Virus record (IMG/VR): IMGVR_UViG_3300031746_000002
Location: 62,001 to 126,000 of that record
Source of the DNA: a virus
Length of the DNA: 64,000 bases
Strand: one strand, 5' to 3'
The notes under the pieces were generated by a model. The model searched no databases. It saw only the letters and a list, made by a program, of their open reading frames with translations, and was not told the origin of the DNA. Each line of letters starts with the position of its first letter. Position 1 is the stretch's first letter. The translations under genes were made by a program, and so were the position numbers. Positions 13,088 through 35,470 of the stretch are shown here, one piece after another.

Positions 13088-13939
13088 ATGCCAGTAGGAA
13101 TTTATAAACGAACTAAAAAAAATAGCAATAAAGGAAAGCATCTTACTAAAGAATGGTGCGATCATATAAGAAAAGGTAACTTAAAAGCTATCAAAGAAGG
13201 AAGACATAAATCTTGGAATAAGGGTTTAACAAAAGAAACAGATAAAAGATTAATGAATACAAGTAAAAATTTAAAAGGAAAAATTTCATGGAGTAAGGGA
13301 TTAACTAAAGAAAATAATTCGAGTTTAAGACATATGAGTAAATTATTAAAAAATCATACTACTTGGAATAAAGGATTAAAAAAAGATACCGACAAAAGAG
13401 TAAAAAATAGTGCAGAAAAATTAAGTAAAAAACTAATAGGACGAAAACTTTCTAAAAAGCATTGTATAAATATAGGTAAAGCAAGAATTGGTAAGCATCC
13501 GTCTATAAAAATAAGAAAAAATATGATAAAAGCTACAGCTAAAAGAATTTTTGAAGGAAAACAGAAACTTGGTACTAATGGTAAATATTCTAATGTCGTT
13601 ACTTATTTTTATTCAAAGAAAAATAATAAAACGTTTAGGACTGTTTCTAAAAACTATGAATTGAAATGTATTAAACATCTAGAAAATGATAATAATATAG
13701 TTAGTTATGATATGAATTGCTTAGCAATCAGATATTTTTATAAACAAAAATGGCATAACTATTTTCCTGATTTTATAGTAAAAGTTAAAAAAGGGAAAGA
13801 TATAATAATTGAATGTAAACCAAGTAATCATTTAAATGATGAGCAAGTCAAAATTAAGATAAAAGCAGCAAAAAAATATTGTAAGAAAAACAATACGATA
13901 TTTAAAGTTTGGACAGATGAAACAAAGGAAACCAAATGA
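13088..13939 (+). CDS. Free-standing homing endonuclease: NUMOD3 repeats + PD-(D/E)XK-like nuclease
   Basis: 283 residues, very lysine-rich. At least three copies of a W-N/S-K-G-L-T/K-K-E/D-T/N motif (NUMOD3-type DNA-binding repeat) are followed by G-R-K-L-S-K-K-H and G-K-A-R-I-G-K-H repeats. The C-terminal third holds a nuclease-like core: Y-F-P-D-F-I-V, then I-I-E-C-K-P, then K-A-A-K-K-Y-C. This resembles TnsA/Vsr-like PD-(D/E)XK enzymes. A paralogue lies at 29195. Probably a selfish mobile gene inserted after the methyltransferase operon. Confidence 0.8.
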   Translation: MPVGIYKRTKKNSNKGKHLTKEWCDHIRKGNLKAIKEGRHKSWNKGLTKETDKRLMNTSKNLKGKISWSKGLTKENNSSLRHMSKLLKNHTTWNKGLKKDTDKRVKNSAEKLSKKLIGRKLSKKHCINIGKARIGKHPSIKIRKNMIKATAKRIFEGKQKLGTNGKYSNVVTYFYSKKNNKTFRTVSKNYELKCIKHLENDNNIVSYDMNCLAIRYFYKQKWHNYFPDFIVKVKKGKDIIIECKPSNHLNDEQVKIKIKAAKKYCKKNNTIFKVWTDETKETK

Positions 13940-18572: not shown

Positions 18573-21491
18573 ATGCCACGCAAAGCAAATATTAGAGGTG
18601 TTGATTTTATAAAACCAAAGAAAACAAAAGAAAAATCACTCTTCGATTCTTTTGATAGATCAGTAGAAGCAAAGAGCAGCAACTTAGGAATATATTGGGA
18701 AGAAAATCCTGTTGGAATTAGAGAATTTGTAACAAGCTTTGACCATATGGGAATACCCAATGGTTTGAGTGATGAACAGTACGAACCATTAGAATTTTTA
18801 TTTGGAAATGAACCAAAGAAAATTTTTGATAATGGTAACACAACAGGAATTGAAGAGTGGGGCAAAGGATGTATAAGCGGTGATGCTAAAATTAGGGATG
18901 TAGAAACAGGAACAGAATATACTATTGAACAACTATATAAATTAAAAAAAGAAATAACAGTACAATGTATTGATGAAGAAAATAAAATTAGAATATCGCA
19001 AGCATCAGTTCCTTGGATTAAAGGAATAGATGATTTATATGAAGTAAAAACAAAATTGGGAAAATCAATTAAAGTAACTAAAGAACATAGATTTAAAACA
19101 CAAAATGGCTGGAAACAATTAAAAGATCTTAGAGTTGACAGCGTTATATTAGATGACAATGATAAAGTAGAATGTAAGTTATGTGGAGAATATGTAAAAT
19201 CGATTCCAAACCACTTACAATGGAATCATCCAGATATAAAGTTAAATGATTATAAATTATTATTTCCTAAAGCAAAGGTATTATCAGATACATGGAAAAA
19301 ATCATGTGGCAGAGCTGGAAAGAAACATTGGGCATTTGGAAAAAAACATCTTAATTCTGGTATAGGATTTGTTAAATATAATAAATCGAGAACTGGTAAA
19401 ACATTTAATGAATATTTTGGTAAAGAAAAAAGTAAGCAAATAAAAGAAAAAATAAAAAATACAGTAAATAAAAATAATAGTCTTTTAACATTAGCTGAGT
19501 CTAAAAAAAAATATGGACGATCTGGTAAAAAACATCATAATTGGAAAGGCGGCATTAGTTATACTTATAAAATCGGTGATACTTATTTAGGAACATTTGG
19601 AAAAAAGCTTCATGAATATATTAGGAAAAGAGATAAAAATCATTGTAAGTTTTGTAAGAAACCAGTTAAAAATAAATTCAAAGGTGATATACATCATATA
19701 AATTATAACAAACTAGATGGTAGATTAGAAAATTTAATATTACTTTGTAAAAGCTGTCATTGTAAAACGCAATATGGTTTACGAAAAGTATGGATCGAAA
19801 AATGTTTAAATAAGATAATTAAACCCAAATGGGACACTATAACATCTATTACATTTTGGAAACATGATAAATATTATGATTTGGAAGTTGAAAAATATCA
19901 TAATTATTTAGCAAATGGTTTATATAACCATAATTCAGGGAAAGATTTAATAGCAGCAATTGGCTTATGTTATATCACACATGTTTTGCTTTGTTGTTCA
20001 GACCCACAGAAGTTGTTAGGAATAGGCGATATATCTGGGGAACCAATTGACTTTGTAAATGTAGCAACAAATGCAGACCAAGCATCAACAGTATTCTTTA
20101 CAAAGTTTACTGAAAGAGTAAAGCGTTGGAAATGGTTAAAGGATAAATATAATTTTAAAGTATCAGGACGAAGTTTAAATGCATTGACTACTAATAAGAA
20201 TAAGGAAATAAATTTATTCAATGATGATGTAGTAATAACATCAAACGGTATTTTATTTCCAAAGATGATAAGAGCATTCAGTGGTAACTCAGAGCAAGAA
20301 GCCCAGGAAGGTAAGAACTATTTAGTATTCATATTAGATGAAGCCAGCGGCTTTGCAGAGACAAAGACATTAAGTGCAGAGAAGATATATAAATCATTAA
20401 AGAGTTCAGCAAGAACAAGGTTTGGTGATAAGTGGAAATGCTTCATACTTTCATTTCCAAGATATAAAGATGATTTCATAGAAGTAATGCACAAAAAAGC
20501 AAAGAAACATTTGCATTGGCACACAGCAAAATTAGCAACATGGCAAGTAAAACCACCACATTGTTTCAGCGGCAAATGGTTTGAATATGAAGGACATAGA
20601 ATTCCATTAGAATACAAAGAAGATTTTGATGATGATCCAAGAGATGCAAAAGCAAAGTTCTTATGTATTCCGCCAGATGCAATTAATCCATTTATAGAAG
20701 AACAGGAAAAGATAGAGCTTTGTATAAATAAACAACGAAAGCAAATGTTCACATGTTATGATTCTCAGAAAGATAATTACGTACAGAAGAAACTAACGTT
20801 AGCACCTTGGATTAGAGTATTGCCAGCACATACTTATACATTGACTATAGACTTAGGAGTTAGTCAATGTAGTTGCGCATTATCATTGCATCATAAAGAA
20901 ATAAAAGGAAATATAGATATAATAGTACAAGACCTTGTAACAAGATGGGAGCCTATACCAAAGAAAGGATTGAGAGTAGATTTCTTTAATGTAGGTTCAA
21001 CCATTTCAATGCTTGTAAAAACATTGGGAGTAAAACAAGTAAGAGTATTCTTTGACCAATGGCAGAGTGAATTACTAATAAACATTTTAAAGAAGATAGG
21101 TATCAATGCTTTAATATATTATTTGGGTTATGAAAACTATCAAGACTTAAGAGAAAGAATTTATACAGGCAGAATAGACCTGCTTGATTATGCACCACAA
21201 ACAAAAGAGTTAAAAGAGATTTCATTAATTAAAGGTAATAAAGTAGACAGACCAGAAAATGGAACAAAGGATATTTGCGATACAGTAGCTGGTGCAATTT
21301 ATGTTCTAACAAAATATGATGAAGAGCATAGAGATAATAGGAAAGATAAAAGAGCACTGCTAGCAAAATTAAATGACGGTGAATTTATTGGATCTAATAT
21401 TTCTGAAATTGATGGTGAAGGAAATTATATTAAGCAAGAAGAAAATGCATTTGAAGGCGCAATCAGCGTATGGGATATTGCTGGTAAATAA
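18573..21491 (+). CDS. terL: Terminase large subunit interrupted by an intein
   Basis: 972 codons. The intein (residues 100-454) splits the ATPase P-loop; removing it joins E-E-W-G-K-G to S-G-K-D-L, restoring G-K-G-S-G-K-D. Walker B is Y-L-V-F-I-L-D-E-A-S (about 586-595). The nuclease domain has acidic residues in L-T-I-D-L-G-V, V-F-F-D-Q-W and K-D-I-C-D-T-V-A. The mature protein (617 residues) packages DNA into proheads through the portal encoded at 24585. It lacks the linker motif found in virion proteins, as expected for a non-virion motor. Confidence 0.93.
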   Translation: MPRKANIRGVDFIKPKKTKEKSLFDSFDRSVEAKSSNLGIYWEENPVGIREFVTSFDHMGIPNGLSDEQYEPLEFLFGNEPKKIFDNGNTTGIEEWGKGCISGDAKIRDVETGTEYTIEQLYKLKKEITVQCIDEENKIRISQASVPWIKGIDDLYEVKTKLGKSIKVTKEHRFKTQNGWKQLKDLRVDSVILDDNDKVECKLCGEYVKSIPNHLQWNHPDIKLNDYKLLFPKAKVLSDTWKKSCGRAGKKHWAFGKKHLNSGIGFVKYNKSRTGKTFNEYFGKEKSKQIKEKIKNTVNKNNSLLTLAESKKKYGRSGKKHHNWKGGISYTYKIGDTYLGTFGKKLHEYIRKRDKNHCKFCKKPVKNKFKGDIHHINYNKLDGRLENLILLCKSCHCKTQYGLRKVWIEKCLNKIIKPKWDTITSITFWKHDKYYDLEVEKYHNYLANGLYNHNSGKDLIAAIGLCYITHVLLCCSDPQKLLGIGDISGEPIDFVNVATNADQASTVFFTKFTERVKRWKWLKDKYNFKVSGRSLNALTTNKNKEINLFNDDVVITSNGILFPKMIRAFSGNSEQEAQEGKNYLVFILDEASGFAETKTLSAEKIYKSLKSSARTRFGDKWKCFILSFPRYKDDFIEVMHKKAKKHLHWHTAKLATWQVKPPHCFSGKWFEYEGHRIPLEYKEDFDDDPRDAKAKFLCIPPDAINPFIEEQEKIELCINKQRKQMFTCYDSQKDNYVQKKLTLAPWIRVLPAHTYTLTIDLGVSQCSCALSLHHKEIKGNIDIIVQDLVTRWEPIPKKGLRVDFFNVGSTISMLVKTLGVKQVRVFFDQWQSELLINILKKIGINALIYYLGYENYQDLRERIYTGRIDLLDYAPQTKELKEISLIKGNKVDRPENGTKDICDTVAGAIYVLTKYDEEHRDNRKDKRALLAKLNDGEFIGSNISEIDGEGNYIKQEENAFEGAISVWDIAGK
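18870..19934 (+). mobile_element. Intein with HNH homing endonuclease in the terL P-loop
   Basis: 355 residues. It begins with Cys (C-I-S-G-D-A-K-I, block A) and has block B T-K-E-H-R-F. It ends D-L-E-V-E-K-Y-H-N-Y-L-A-N-G then Y-N-H-N, followed by Ser (+1). The insert contains C-x2-C ... N-H-L-x3-H (a MucR/Ros-like finger), NUMOD3-like G-R-A/S-G-K-K-H, and an HNH nuclease (C-K-F-C ... I-H-H-I-N-Y-N ... L-E-N-L-I-L-L-C-K-S-C-H). All splicing residues appear intact, so excision should yield active terminase. Confidence 0.93.
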
Positions 21492-29103: not shown

Positions 29104-29178
29104 CGGGGTATAGCTCAGTTGGCTAGAGCACACGGTTTGGGGCCGTGGGGTCCGTCAGTTCGAATCTGACTACCCCGA
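29104..29178 (+). tRNA. tRNA-Pro (anticodon TGG)
   Basis: The acceptor CGGGGTA/TACCCCG folds fully, the D arm is GCTC/GAGC, and anticodon stem CACGG/CCGTG has loop TTTGGGG (anticodon TGG). The T arm GTCAG/CTGAC has loop TTCGAAT, and the discriminator is A. CCA is not encoded. It reads CCA/CCN codons, common in these genes. A homing endonuclease gene follows at once, a frequent insertion site type. Confidence 0.93.
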
Positions 29179-29194: not shown

Positions 29195-29839
29195 ATGCCA
29201 AAAGGACAAATTGCTTGGAATAAAGGATTAACAAAAGAAACAGATGAGCGAGTTGCATTAATAGGAAAAAGCTCGGGTAGGACAAGAATAGGAATGGTAG
29301 GATCGTTTAAAGGAAAACATCATTCTAAACAATCACGTAAAAAAATTAGTAAGAAAATGATGGGTATGGTACATTCTAAAGAACGTCGTTTAAATGAAAG
29401 TAAAGGATATAATCATTCTGAGCAGCATCGTCTTAAAATAAGTATAGCAGCAGCTAAACAAGCTATACAAAATAAACAAGATCATAAATGGAGTTGGGGT
29501 AAATCGGGTTGGTTTTATTCTAAAAAGAATAATAAAAGATTTAGATATTTATCTAGTATTGAATTACAATGTTTAAAATTTTTAGAAAGTAAAGAAGATG
29601 TTTTAAAATATCAAACTAATCCATTAAGAATACTTTATACATATCAAATGCAACAAAGAAATTATATACCCGATATTTTGGTTGAATATAATAATGGTAA
29701 AAAAATATTAATAGAAGTAAAGCATAATAAAGGTTTGAAGAATAATATAGTTCAAATTAAAGCAAAAGCAGCTATAAAATATTGTAAAGAAAATAATATG
29801 GAATATAAATTTTATACAGAGTCTAAATTGCTGATGTAG
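29195..29839 (+). CDS. Free-standing homing endonuclease, paralogue of the one at 13088
   Basis: 214 residues. It opens A-W-N-K-G-L-T-K-E-T-D-E-R, the same NUMOD3 unit as in the 13088 protein, then has K-G-K-H-H-S-K-Q-S-R and further repeats. The C-terminal nuclease core is Y-I-P-D-I-L-V, then I-L-I-E-V-K-H, then K-A-A-I-K-Y-C-K-E-N-N. It is shorter, with fewer DNA-binding repeats. Inserted directly behind tRNA-Pro; likely mobile. Confidence 0.8.
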   Translation: MPKGQIAWNKGLTKETDERVALIGKSSGRTRIGMVGSFKGKHHSKQSRKKISKKMMGMVHSKERRLNESKGYNHSEQHRLKISIAAAKQAIQNKQDHKWSWGKSGWFYSKKNNKRFRYLSSIELQCLKFLESKEDVLKYQTNPLRILYTYQMQQRNYIPDILVEYNNGKKILIEVKHNKGLKNNIVQIKAKAAIKYCKENNMEYKFYTESKLLM

Positions 29840-34906: not shown

Positions 34907-35079
34907 AAATATTTAAAATCATCGTATACATATTTTATTCTATAATTTGTATAGCAGAAGGCTTATTAGTTAATAAGGTAGCAGATCATAGCCAGCATTT
35001 GGCTTGGGGTTTACTAGTAACATTTATACTGTTGCTTATCAGTACAGAATTAGTAGAATTAACAAGGAAATTGAAATGA
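34903..35079 (+). CDS. Small two-pass membrane protein
   Basis: 58 residues with two hydrophobic helices (I-I-V-Y-I-F-Y-S-I-I-C-I-A and W-G-L-L-V-T-F-I-L-L-L-I). RBS GAGGAG. Function unknown; small membrane peptides are frequent in this region. Confidence 0.6.
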   Translation: MKIFKIIVYIFYSIICIAEGLLVNKVADHSQHLAWGLLVTFILLLISTELVELTRKLK

Positions 35080-35207
35080 AGGAGTTACGAGACATCTCCG
35101 AAATTGGCGAAAGCCGTATGGGCGAAATACCCGTTAATCAAATAGTCTCCGCGTCAGGGATGAAGAAAGGTGGGACTAGTAGTGTCCATCCTCTAAAGAG
35201 TGTGTAA
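35076..35207 (+). CDS. Doubtful small ORF overlapping the rRNA-like element
   Basis: 43 codons beginning in an ATGA overlap. The peptide lacks a hydrophobic core and its composition differs from neighbours. Its 3' half coincides with the structured segment at 35152-35230, so base conservation there is better explained by RNA. Listed for completeness. Confidence 0.25.
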   Translation: MKELRDISEIGESRMGEIPVNQIVSASGMKKGGTSSVHPLKSV

Positions 35208-35230
35208 TAACTCATCTGCAATGCCTGACG
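35152..35230 (+). ncRNA. Structured RNA resembling the 23S rRNA GTPase-associated centre
   Basis: Stem CGTCAGG/CCTGACG (35152-35158 / 35224-35230) encloses a two-hairpin element that follows E. coli 23S nt 1051-1108 in order. GAT/ATC and GGAC/GTCC pair around loop TAGTAGT (rRNA loop UAGAAGC). Then TAAAGAGTG and the GTAATA loop (35204-35209) are followed by CTCA. Differences in the GGAC/GTCC stem and at the base pair closing GTAATA (T203-A210 for C-G) are compensatory. An 11-nt insertion sits in the first arm. It may act as a decoy for L11 or translational GTPases. The comparison is from memory. Confidence 0.6.
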
Positions 35231-35263
35231 TAGTTTGGTAGAGATAATAAGGAAAAATAGAAT

Positions 35264-35470
35264 ATGGATTTTAAAATAGGCGATCATGTAAAATGGGAAT
35301 GTAAAATCTGTGATTGCATGCATGCTGGAGTTATAATAGATATACATGTTGATGGAATAAATATTGATAAGGAAGAAATCAAAATGGCGAAGATTAGATT
35401 AGGTGAAGATCTTGAAATGATAAGTGGAACTATTATAGAAGCATATACAGGAGATTTAACAAAGGAGTGA
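35264..35470 (+). CDS. Hypothetical SH3-like small protein
   Basis: 68 residues opening F-K-I-G-D-H-V-K-W-E, the start typical of KOW/SH3-like barrels; C-K-I-C-D-C may bind metal. A modest AAGG lies upstream. Not recognised. Confidence 0.6.
   Translation: MDFKIGDHVKWECKICDCMHAGVIIDIHVDGINIDKEEIKMAKIRLGEDLEMISGTIIEAYTGDLTKE

Follow-up and report, generated by a model that had tools for sequence, protein, structure and literature searches.

The GTPase-associated centre copy in the window

The window analysed here is a 64,000-nucleotide stretch of viral DNA, corresponding to bases 62001–126000 of the 138,900-base virus record IMGVR_UViG_3300031746_000002, and all window positions are given within this stretch. 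On its plus strand, at 35151–35231, the window contains a closed RNA domain that mimics the GTPase-associated centre (GAC) of 23S rRNA, i.e. helices H43 and H44 (Escherichia coli 1051–1108). This had been proposed by a sequence-only reading of the same DNA and is now confirmed by the predicted fold, by the Rfam family for archaeal large-subunit (LSU) rRNA and by a covariance model made from phage elements only. The Rfam family LSU_rRNA_archaea gave an ungapped alignment of 35164–35217 with model positions 1180–1233, scoring 31.8 bits (a 161-nt query against all Rfam families, E = 3.9e-8). The gathering score of this family is 50, and default scans therefore overlook the element. The phage covariance model, which was built from 68 other phage elements with the window element left out, matched 35158–35223 at 48.3 bits (window search, E = 3.7e-10), and the window element was its single match in the whole record (E = 8.1e-10). 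Covariance-model matches were significant with the archaeal and phage models, whereas the Rfam bacterial LSU model did not report the element in the whole-record search. None of the outcomes that the sequence-only reading had named as refuting was encountered. The segment 35150–35232 has a minimum energy of −29.1 kcal/mol (z = −3.86), and none of 200 shuffled sequences was equally low. Both the minimum-energy and the centroid folds consist of H43 and H44 at a junction within a closing stem.

The closing stem, which had likewise been predicted, is formed in both folds by GCGUCAGG (35151–35158) and CCUGACGU (35224–35231) and replaces the rRNA helix H42. Inside it, a short H42-like stem pairs 35164–35166 with 35215–35217 (1053–1055 with 1104–1106 in the Rfam alignment and the fold). 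The H43 hairpin (35168–35192) comprises AGG/CCU (1057–1059/1079–1081) and GGAC/GUCC (1062–1065/1073–1076), and H44 (35198–35213) contains the pairs G1087–C1102, G1091–C1100, and U1092–A1099, the bulged A1088 (35199), and the GUAAUA loop (35204–35209); both helices were identified by Rfam, the fold, and the phage model. All of these features are on the plus strand. H44 is uninterrupted, with 2 nt at the site where most phage members of the class described below have an inserted arm. No other LSU rRNA segments were reported anywhere in the window, and the element is not part of an rRNA gene.

In E. coli numbering (G1062 at 35173 and G1091 at 35202), the window element retains U1060, U1066, A1067, G1068, A1070, G1071, A1077, the AAAGA of 1084–1088, and G1093–A1098, including A1095. 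The equivalent of A1067, which contacts thiostrepton and the tRNA elbow, lies at 35178 on the plus strand and is still an A in the ungapped alignments. By eye, 37 of 49 positions are identical to the archaeal consensus and 33 of 49 to E. coli, so that the earlier count of about 31 matches among 44 core positions was about right. The differences from rRNA are coordinated: the 1064–1074 pair has changed from C-G to A-U, 1065/1073 has become C-G, and 1092–1099 has changed from C-G to U-A. The sequence-only reading was correct in regarding such changes as compensatory, but it overlooked one coupled to the last pair, namely the change from C to U at nucleotide 1072 (35183, plus strand, in the element alignments). 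Nucleotides 1072, 1092, and 1099 constitute the tertiary triple of the GAC, which in the window has the U/U-A form. In a genome scan with the U1092–A1099 pattern, 108 of 114 loci matched LSU rRNA, the cyanobacterial ones only via the GAC itself. The true rRNAs with this pair were mostly from Parcubacteria, Poribacteria, and Nanoarchaea, and nucleotide 1072 is nearly always U in them, which indicates that U/U-A is a natural alternative of the triple. Whole groups carry the U1072/U1092–A1099 form in their own 23S rRNA, including Poribacteria (L018, L052, L053, and other loci) and Parcubacteria (L015, L019, and others).

A class of phage GAC copies

The sequence-only reading treated the element as a single curiosity, but it is a compact member of an RNA class that is widespread and unannotated. 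About 140 distinct non-rRNA GAC copies, a lower bound, were revealed by pattern scans, mostly in large phages. Scanning viral contigs for an H43 pattern yielded 115 contigs, and LSU-like flanks were present in 0 of the 114 matches of that scan. The first viral pattern had A1067 and G1068 fixed; a second scan, which dropped both, added at least 47 further distinct elements, at least 39 of which parsed fully. Using a cyanobacterial element as the query, GAC pieces were also found in cultured Pseudomonas and Xanthomonas phages, and the cultured carriers include GAP32, CBB, BF, Erwinia SNUABM phages, XaC1, XacN1, pf16, UNO-G1W1, Milchi, Astolliot, Aeromonas 4_4572, and Vibrio 2.275.O. Their elements lie in unannotated intergenic gaps or beneath dubious open reading frames (ORFs); that of pf16 (record KU873925) sits in the tRNA cluster of the phage. 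A sequence search of cultured phages with the window element alone gave no significant match. The phage covariance model gave no match in T4 or in the negative controls KVP40, 121Q, phage G, LR745208, Tunturi_5, and Rctr197k.

Class members typically have the order H43-UUUAAAGA, inserted arm, and CUUUGGCGUAAUAGCAC, enclosed by a closing stem of phage-private sequence. The arm inserted in H44 measures 28–366 nt in most members and is very different between phages, whereas the window element, L246, and the cyanobacterial copies are compact and lack it. The phage elements nearest to the window H43 share 32 of 34 bases (L223) and 94.6% identity over 37 nt (L276; window 35165–35201). That its nearest relatives are phage elements suggests that it was inherited within the phage class and not freshly captured from host rRNA. 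In Milchi (L131, 2440–2475), a second H44-like end, CCCGUAGAGCAUUUGGUGUCAUAACACGCC, is located just upstream of the element and is perhaps the remnant of a tandem copy.

Stems and tertiary contacts co-vary across these relatives, as expected from the selection on RNA structure for which the sequence-only reading had argued. When the arm is left out of 68 phage elements, standard pairs occupy 94.4% of the paired cells, compared with 70.2% after shuffling, and the co-variation score is 0.611 versus 0.154, a level reached in 0 of 500 shuffles and lost when the structure is slid; since the elements are related to one another, these shuffle counts are not probabilities. The closing stems were picked by best pairing, which inflates the values for this helix, whereas the pairs 1058–1080 and 1064–1074 and the triple played no part in the picking. 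The 1058–1080 pair occurs as G-C (48 elements), U-A (22), A-U (16), and C-G (1). Among 119 elements with an unconstrained loop, the triple 1072/(1092–1099) is C/C-G in 81, U/U-A in 33, and of other types in 5, and it is consistent in 114 elements, compared with a mean of 66 and a maximum of 83 in shuffles. The first helix of the arm is paired in 76, 76, and 75 of 76 elements. Several pair types occur in this helix, and the otherwise constant U.U mismatch within it is replaced by C.C in two elements. The apex is looser than the buried core (n = 119): G1068 is replaced by A in 33 elements and A1067 by G or U in 13, and 1096–1097 are variable. In compact members, the conserved core reads UAG (1066) and UAA (1083 and 1094) in three different frames, and the class therefore cannot be coding; what homologues keep is the stems and tertiary contacts and not a peptide.

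Some members also copy the sarcin-ricin loop (SRL), which makes up the remaining half of the site to which factors bind. A genome scan identified eight cyanobacterial loci with a GAC outside rRNA, five of them in dense tRNA arrays, and these copies contain a true SRL upstream of the GAC (75 nt before H43 in L136). In phage L276, the sarcin-ricin sequence AGUACGAGAGGA is perfect, has a stem of its own, and lies downstream of H43, and L162, L273, and L275 contain the sequence with one change; in these four phages, the hairpin lies 226–252 nt after the start of H43. In total, an SRL was found near five of 141 elements (the four phages and the cyanobacterial L136), compared with 0.37 expected. No SRL match with two or fewer mismatches was found near the window element. 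According to direct reading and alignment, a candidate plus-strand hairpin at 35081–35099, GGAG-UUACGAGACAU-CUCC, holds UACGAGA, the SRL centre, at the place where cyanobacterial members bear the true SRL, but it agrees with the SRL at fewer than 10 of 12 positions and the tetraloop-closing pair C2658–G2663 has been lost.

In the cyanobacterial loci L023, L051, L059, L089, and L116, the SRL and GAC RNA is located inside arrays of up to about 30 tRNA genes. L016, L065, L136, and L137 represent a cyanobacterial chromosome, a metagenome-assembled genome, and plasmids, in which the RNA is followed by a conserved protein of 274–285 amino acids (no Pfam family in the two scanned) and a ThiF adenylyltransferase. 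Upstream of the RNA there is a vWA protein, with a weak Ro60-vWA match in L137, and L137 also has a poly(A)-polymerase/CCA-like gene upstream. This arrangement looks like a separate RNA-protein operon.

Genomic neighbourhood of the elements

A tRNA gene is present within 1.5 kb of 64 of 89 elements (72%). Such proximity was found for 38 of 53 elements, compared with 32% at control positions of the same loci, and tRNA genes follow many relatives. The window element is not among the tRNA-proximal members, since the nearest tRNA gene (tRNA-Pro, 29104–29178) is 6 kb away. A uL11 gene was found in 0 of the 49 carriers searched (the window record and 48 others), and any uL11 partner must therefore be that of the host. 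Grouping the ORFs downstream of 67 elements gave 64 unrelated clusters; a cis target gene was rejected for the class because there is no common downstream gene, and the autoregulation of a particular gene, which the sequence-only reading had offered as an option, is unlikely given these clusters and the carriers without uL11. TROVE/Ro60 and RtcB were rejected as constant companions (one and five of 49 carriers, respectively). In XacN1, a 2′-5′ RNA ligase gene is located immediately upstream of the element.

A promoter of its own for every element was also rejected: TATAAT-like sequences precede 17 of 74 elements versus 15% of controls, a weak enrichment. U-tracts follow the closing stem in 10 of 74 elements versus 3.5% of controls. 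In L223 (6120–6150) and L244, a perfect TTGACA–TATAAT promoter lies right before the closing stem, and the 3′ strand of the L223 stem leads into a U-tract; judged from these signals, the L223 RNA may be a transcription unit of its own.

As read by eye, the ORFs of the source record include genes for DnaE, RecA, an SbcC-like protein, a terminase, and an NAD-dependent ligase. Among cultured phages the virus has only distant relatives, Bacillus phage G for instance, and searches for close relatives with LigA, capsid, and portal proteins returned distant phages only, which left no near kin with which to align the window element. The element is flanked by small ORFs on both sides in a co-directional gene run, and the next gene downstream (35264–35470, plus strand; 68 amino acids, no family in the family search) starts 33 nt beyond it. 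A 43-codon ORF on the same strand (35076–35207), for which no PHROGs family was found, overlaps the element, ends at the UAA of the GUAAUA loop, and is nested in a longer ORF (35004–35207); it is probably incidental. Elsewhere in the window, a 972-amino-acid terminase-like ORF (18573–21491) seemingly contains, as judged by eye, an intein bearing an HNH-type insert. The ORFs at 13088–13939 and 29195–29839 are related to each other, share WNKGLTKETD repeats, and are likely homing endonucleases, the latter adjoining the tRNA-Pro gene.

Proposed function and relation to known systems

The GAC is the meeting place of uL11, EF-G, EF-Tu, and RelA-bound tRNA. H43/H44 is a 58-nt RNA that folds autonomously and is the binding site of uL11 (PMC4409310), and the elbow of RelA-bound tRNA stacks on A1067 while its acceptor stem stacks on the SRL (PMC5829649). 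We propose, with a probability of roughly one half, that the element is a trans-acting decoy RNA that binds host uL11 or the partners of its site. The lack of a common downstream gene, together with the association with tRNA genes, favours a trans-acting stable RNA, and a kept buried core with a looser factor-facing apex is more in keeping with uL11 than with elongation factors as the main ligand. In such a mechanism, the RNA would accumulate off the ribosomes during infection, with class RNAs usually made from tRNA regions; the free RNA would fold like the 58-nt GAC and bind host uL11, and either competition or the provision of a spare site copy would weaken host processes that depend on uL11 and the GAC, e.g. 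RelA signalling, or would shield the site. Several points weigh against this proposal. The long H44 arm of most relatives is left unexplained by a uL11 decoy, and the SRL-bearing members suggest a target whose recognition extends beyond the uL11 site. The window element itself is far from a tRNA gene and between small ORFs, and may be part of an mRNA. In addition, the real variability of A1067 and G1068 is underestimated because both were fixed in the first scan.

The RNA could instead offer a spare substrate to a host enzyme, be it a toxin, a nuclease, or a modifying enzyme, directed against the factor-binding site of the ribosome, as phage tRNA arrays may do against tRNA-cutting defences. 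The location of 72% of the elements within 1.5 kb of tRNA genes is consistent with such a role, as tRNA arrays have been classed as putative antidefence units (PMC12803027), and so is the joint presence of GAC and SRL in four phages and in cyanobacterial arrays, the SRL being a known target of ribosome-cleaving toxins (PMC5829649). Some carriers also have RNA-repair genes, i.e. the five with RtcB and XacN1 with its 2′-5′ RNA ligase. Most elements, however, have no SRL, and we know of no bacterial defence enzyme whose target is the GAC; we regard this explanation as rather unlikely. Lower still is our estimate for a scaffold in which the GAC serves only to tether the RNA to a host protein (uL11 or a different one), the activity residing in the variable arm and the window element being a reduced member. 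Arms that differ greatly between phages, yet are joined by a co-varying helix paired in 75–76 of 76 elements, would fit a scaffold; the existence of armless compact members argues against it.

A cis-acting leader, in which host uL11 would bind the element within an mRNA and control the 68-amino-acid ORF in the manner of ribosomal-protein leaders, would agree with the position of the element 33 nt before that ORF in a co-directional gene run, but the diversity of downstream ORFs and the tRNA genes that follow many relatives make it improbable. Clear homology to LSU rRNA is what would be expected of a functionless captured fragment, and yet this explanation is contradicted by the compensatory and triple co-variation in 119 elements, by the phage-private closing stems, and by nearest relatives that are phage elements and not any rRNA seen; we give it very little credence. 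Least credible is that the segment encodes the C-terminus of a 43-amino-acid peptide and resembles the GAC incidentally: the ATG of this ORF overlaps an upstream stop codon and is preceded by a plausible ribosome-binding site, but the E-values of the covariance models, the absence of a protein family, and the core stops in three frames all oppose coding.

We further suggest, with somewhat less than even odds, that phages and cyanobacterial mobile tRNA arrays make a stand-alone copy of the whole factor site (the GAC, in some cases with the SRL) that decoys host proteins or ribosome-attacking defence enzymes, which would place a class of RNA counter-weapons beside phage tRNAs.

Besides tRNAs, phages are known to encode some ribosomal proteins and also ornate RNAs, among them GOLLD and ROOL, which have been reported near tRNA genes. 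Ribosomal-protein leaders mimic rRNA sites in cis. The element shares with the 23S rRNA GAC its secondary structure, the triple, the bulged A1088, U1060, and the GUAAUA loop, but differs in being a free 81-nt domain outside rRNA with its own closing stem in place of H42, and most of its phage relatives additionally bear the long H44 arm. As in ribosomal-protein mRNA leaders, an rRNA binding site has been copied into another RNA; unlike these leaders, the elements have no ribosomal protein gene downstream and no shared downstream gene, and their carriers lack uL11. The class resembles phage tRNA arrays in that phages copy host translation RNAs and in that most GAC relatives are located among tRNA genes, but a piece of rRNA rather than a tRNA is copied. 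It also resembles GOLLD and ROOL, large structured RNAs known from both phages and prophages (PMC12286853), from which it is distinguished by the GAC core, and neither Rfam family matched in the 15 carrier loci scanned.

Rfam 15 contains no family for the class, and Rfam matches to the elements are to LSU rRNA near or below the gathering score. No earlier description was found in a search of open-access full texts. To our knowledge, no recurrent class of phage RNAs was previously known to reproduce a functional rRNA site together with the tertiary contacts of that site, and a copy of such a centre that acts in trans and is spread across many phages appears to be of a new kind. If the proposal is true, a free GAC copy would be a new route to take over translation or the stringent response, or to blunt a ribosome-targeting defence. 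The class is open to direct testing: co-variation predicts the important bases, several carriers have cultivable laboratory hosts, and biochemical work with uL11 and the 58-nt GAC is long established.

T4 rnaC and rnaD, two stable RNAs of unexplained role from the tRNA cluster of that phage, are a further parallel; they were rejected as class members, as no GAC was detected in them by eye or with the phage model R1. The T4 rnaC region (L138, 1409–1672) has a fold much more stable than random expectation (z = −4.6) and a tRNA-like T arm at its end.
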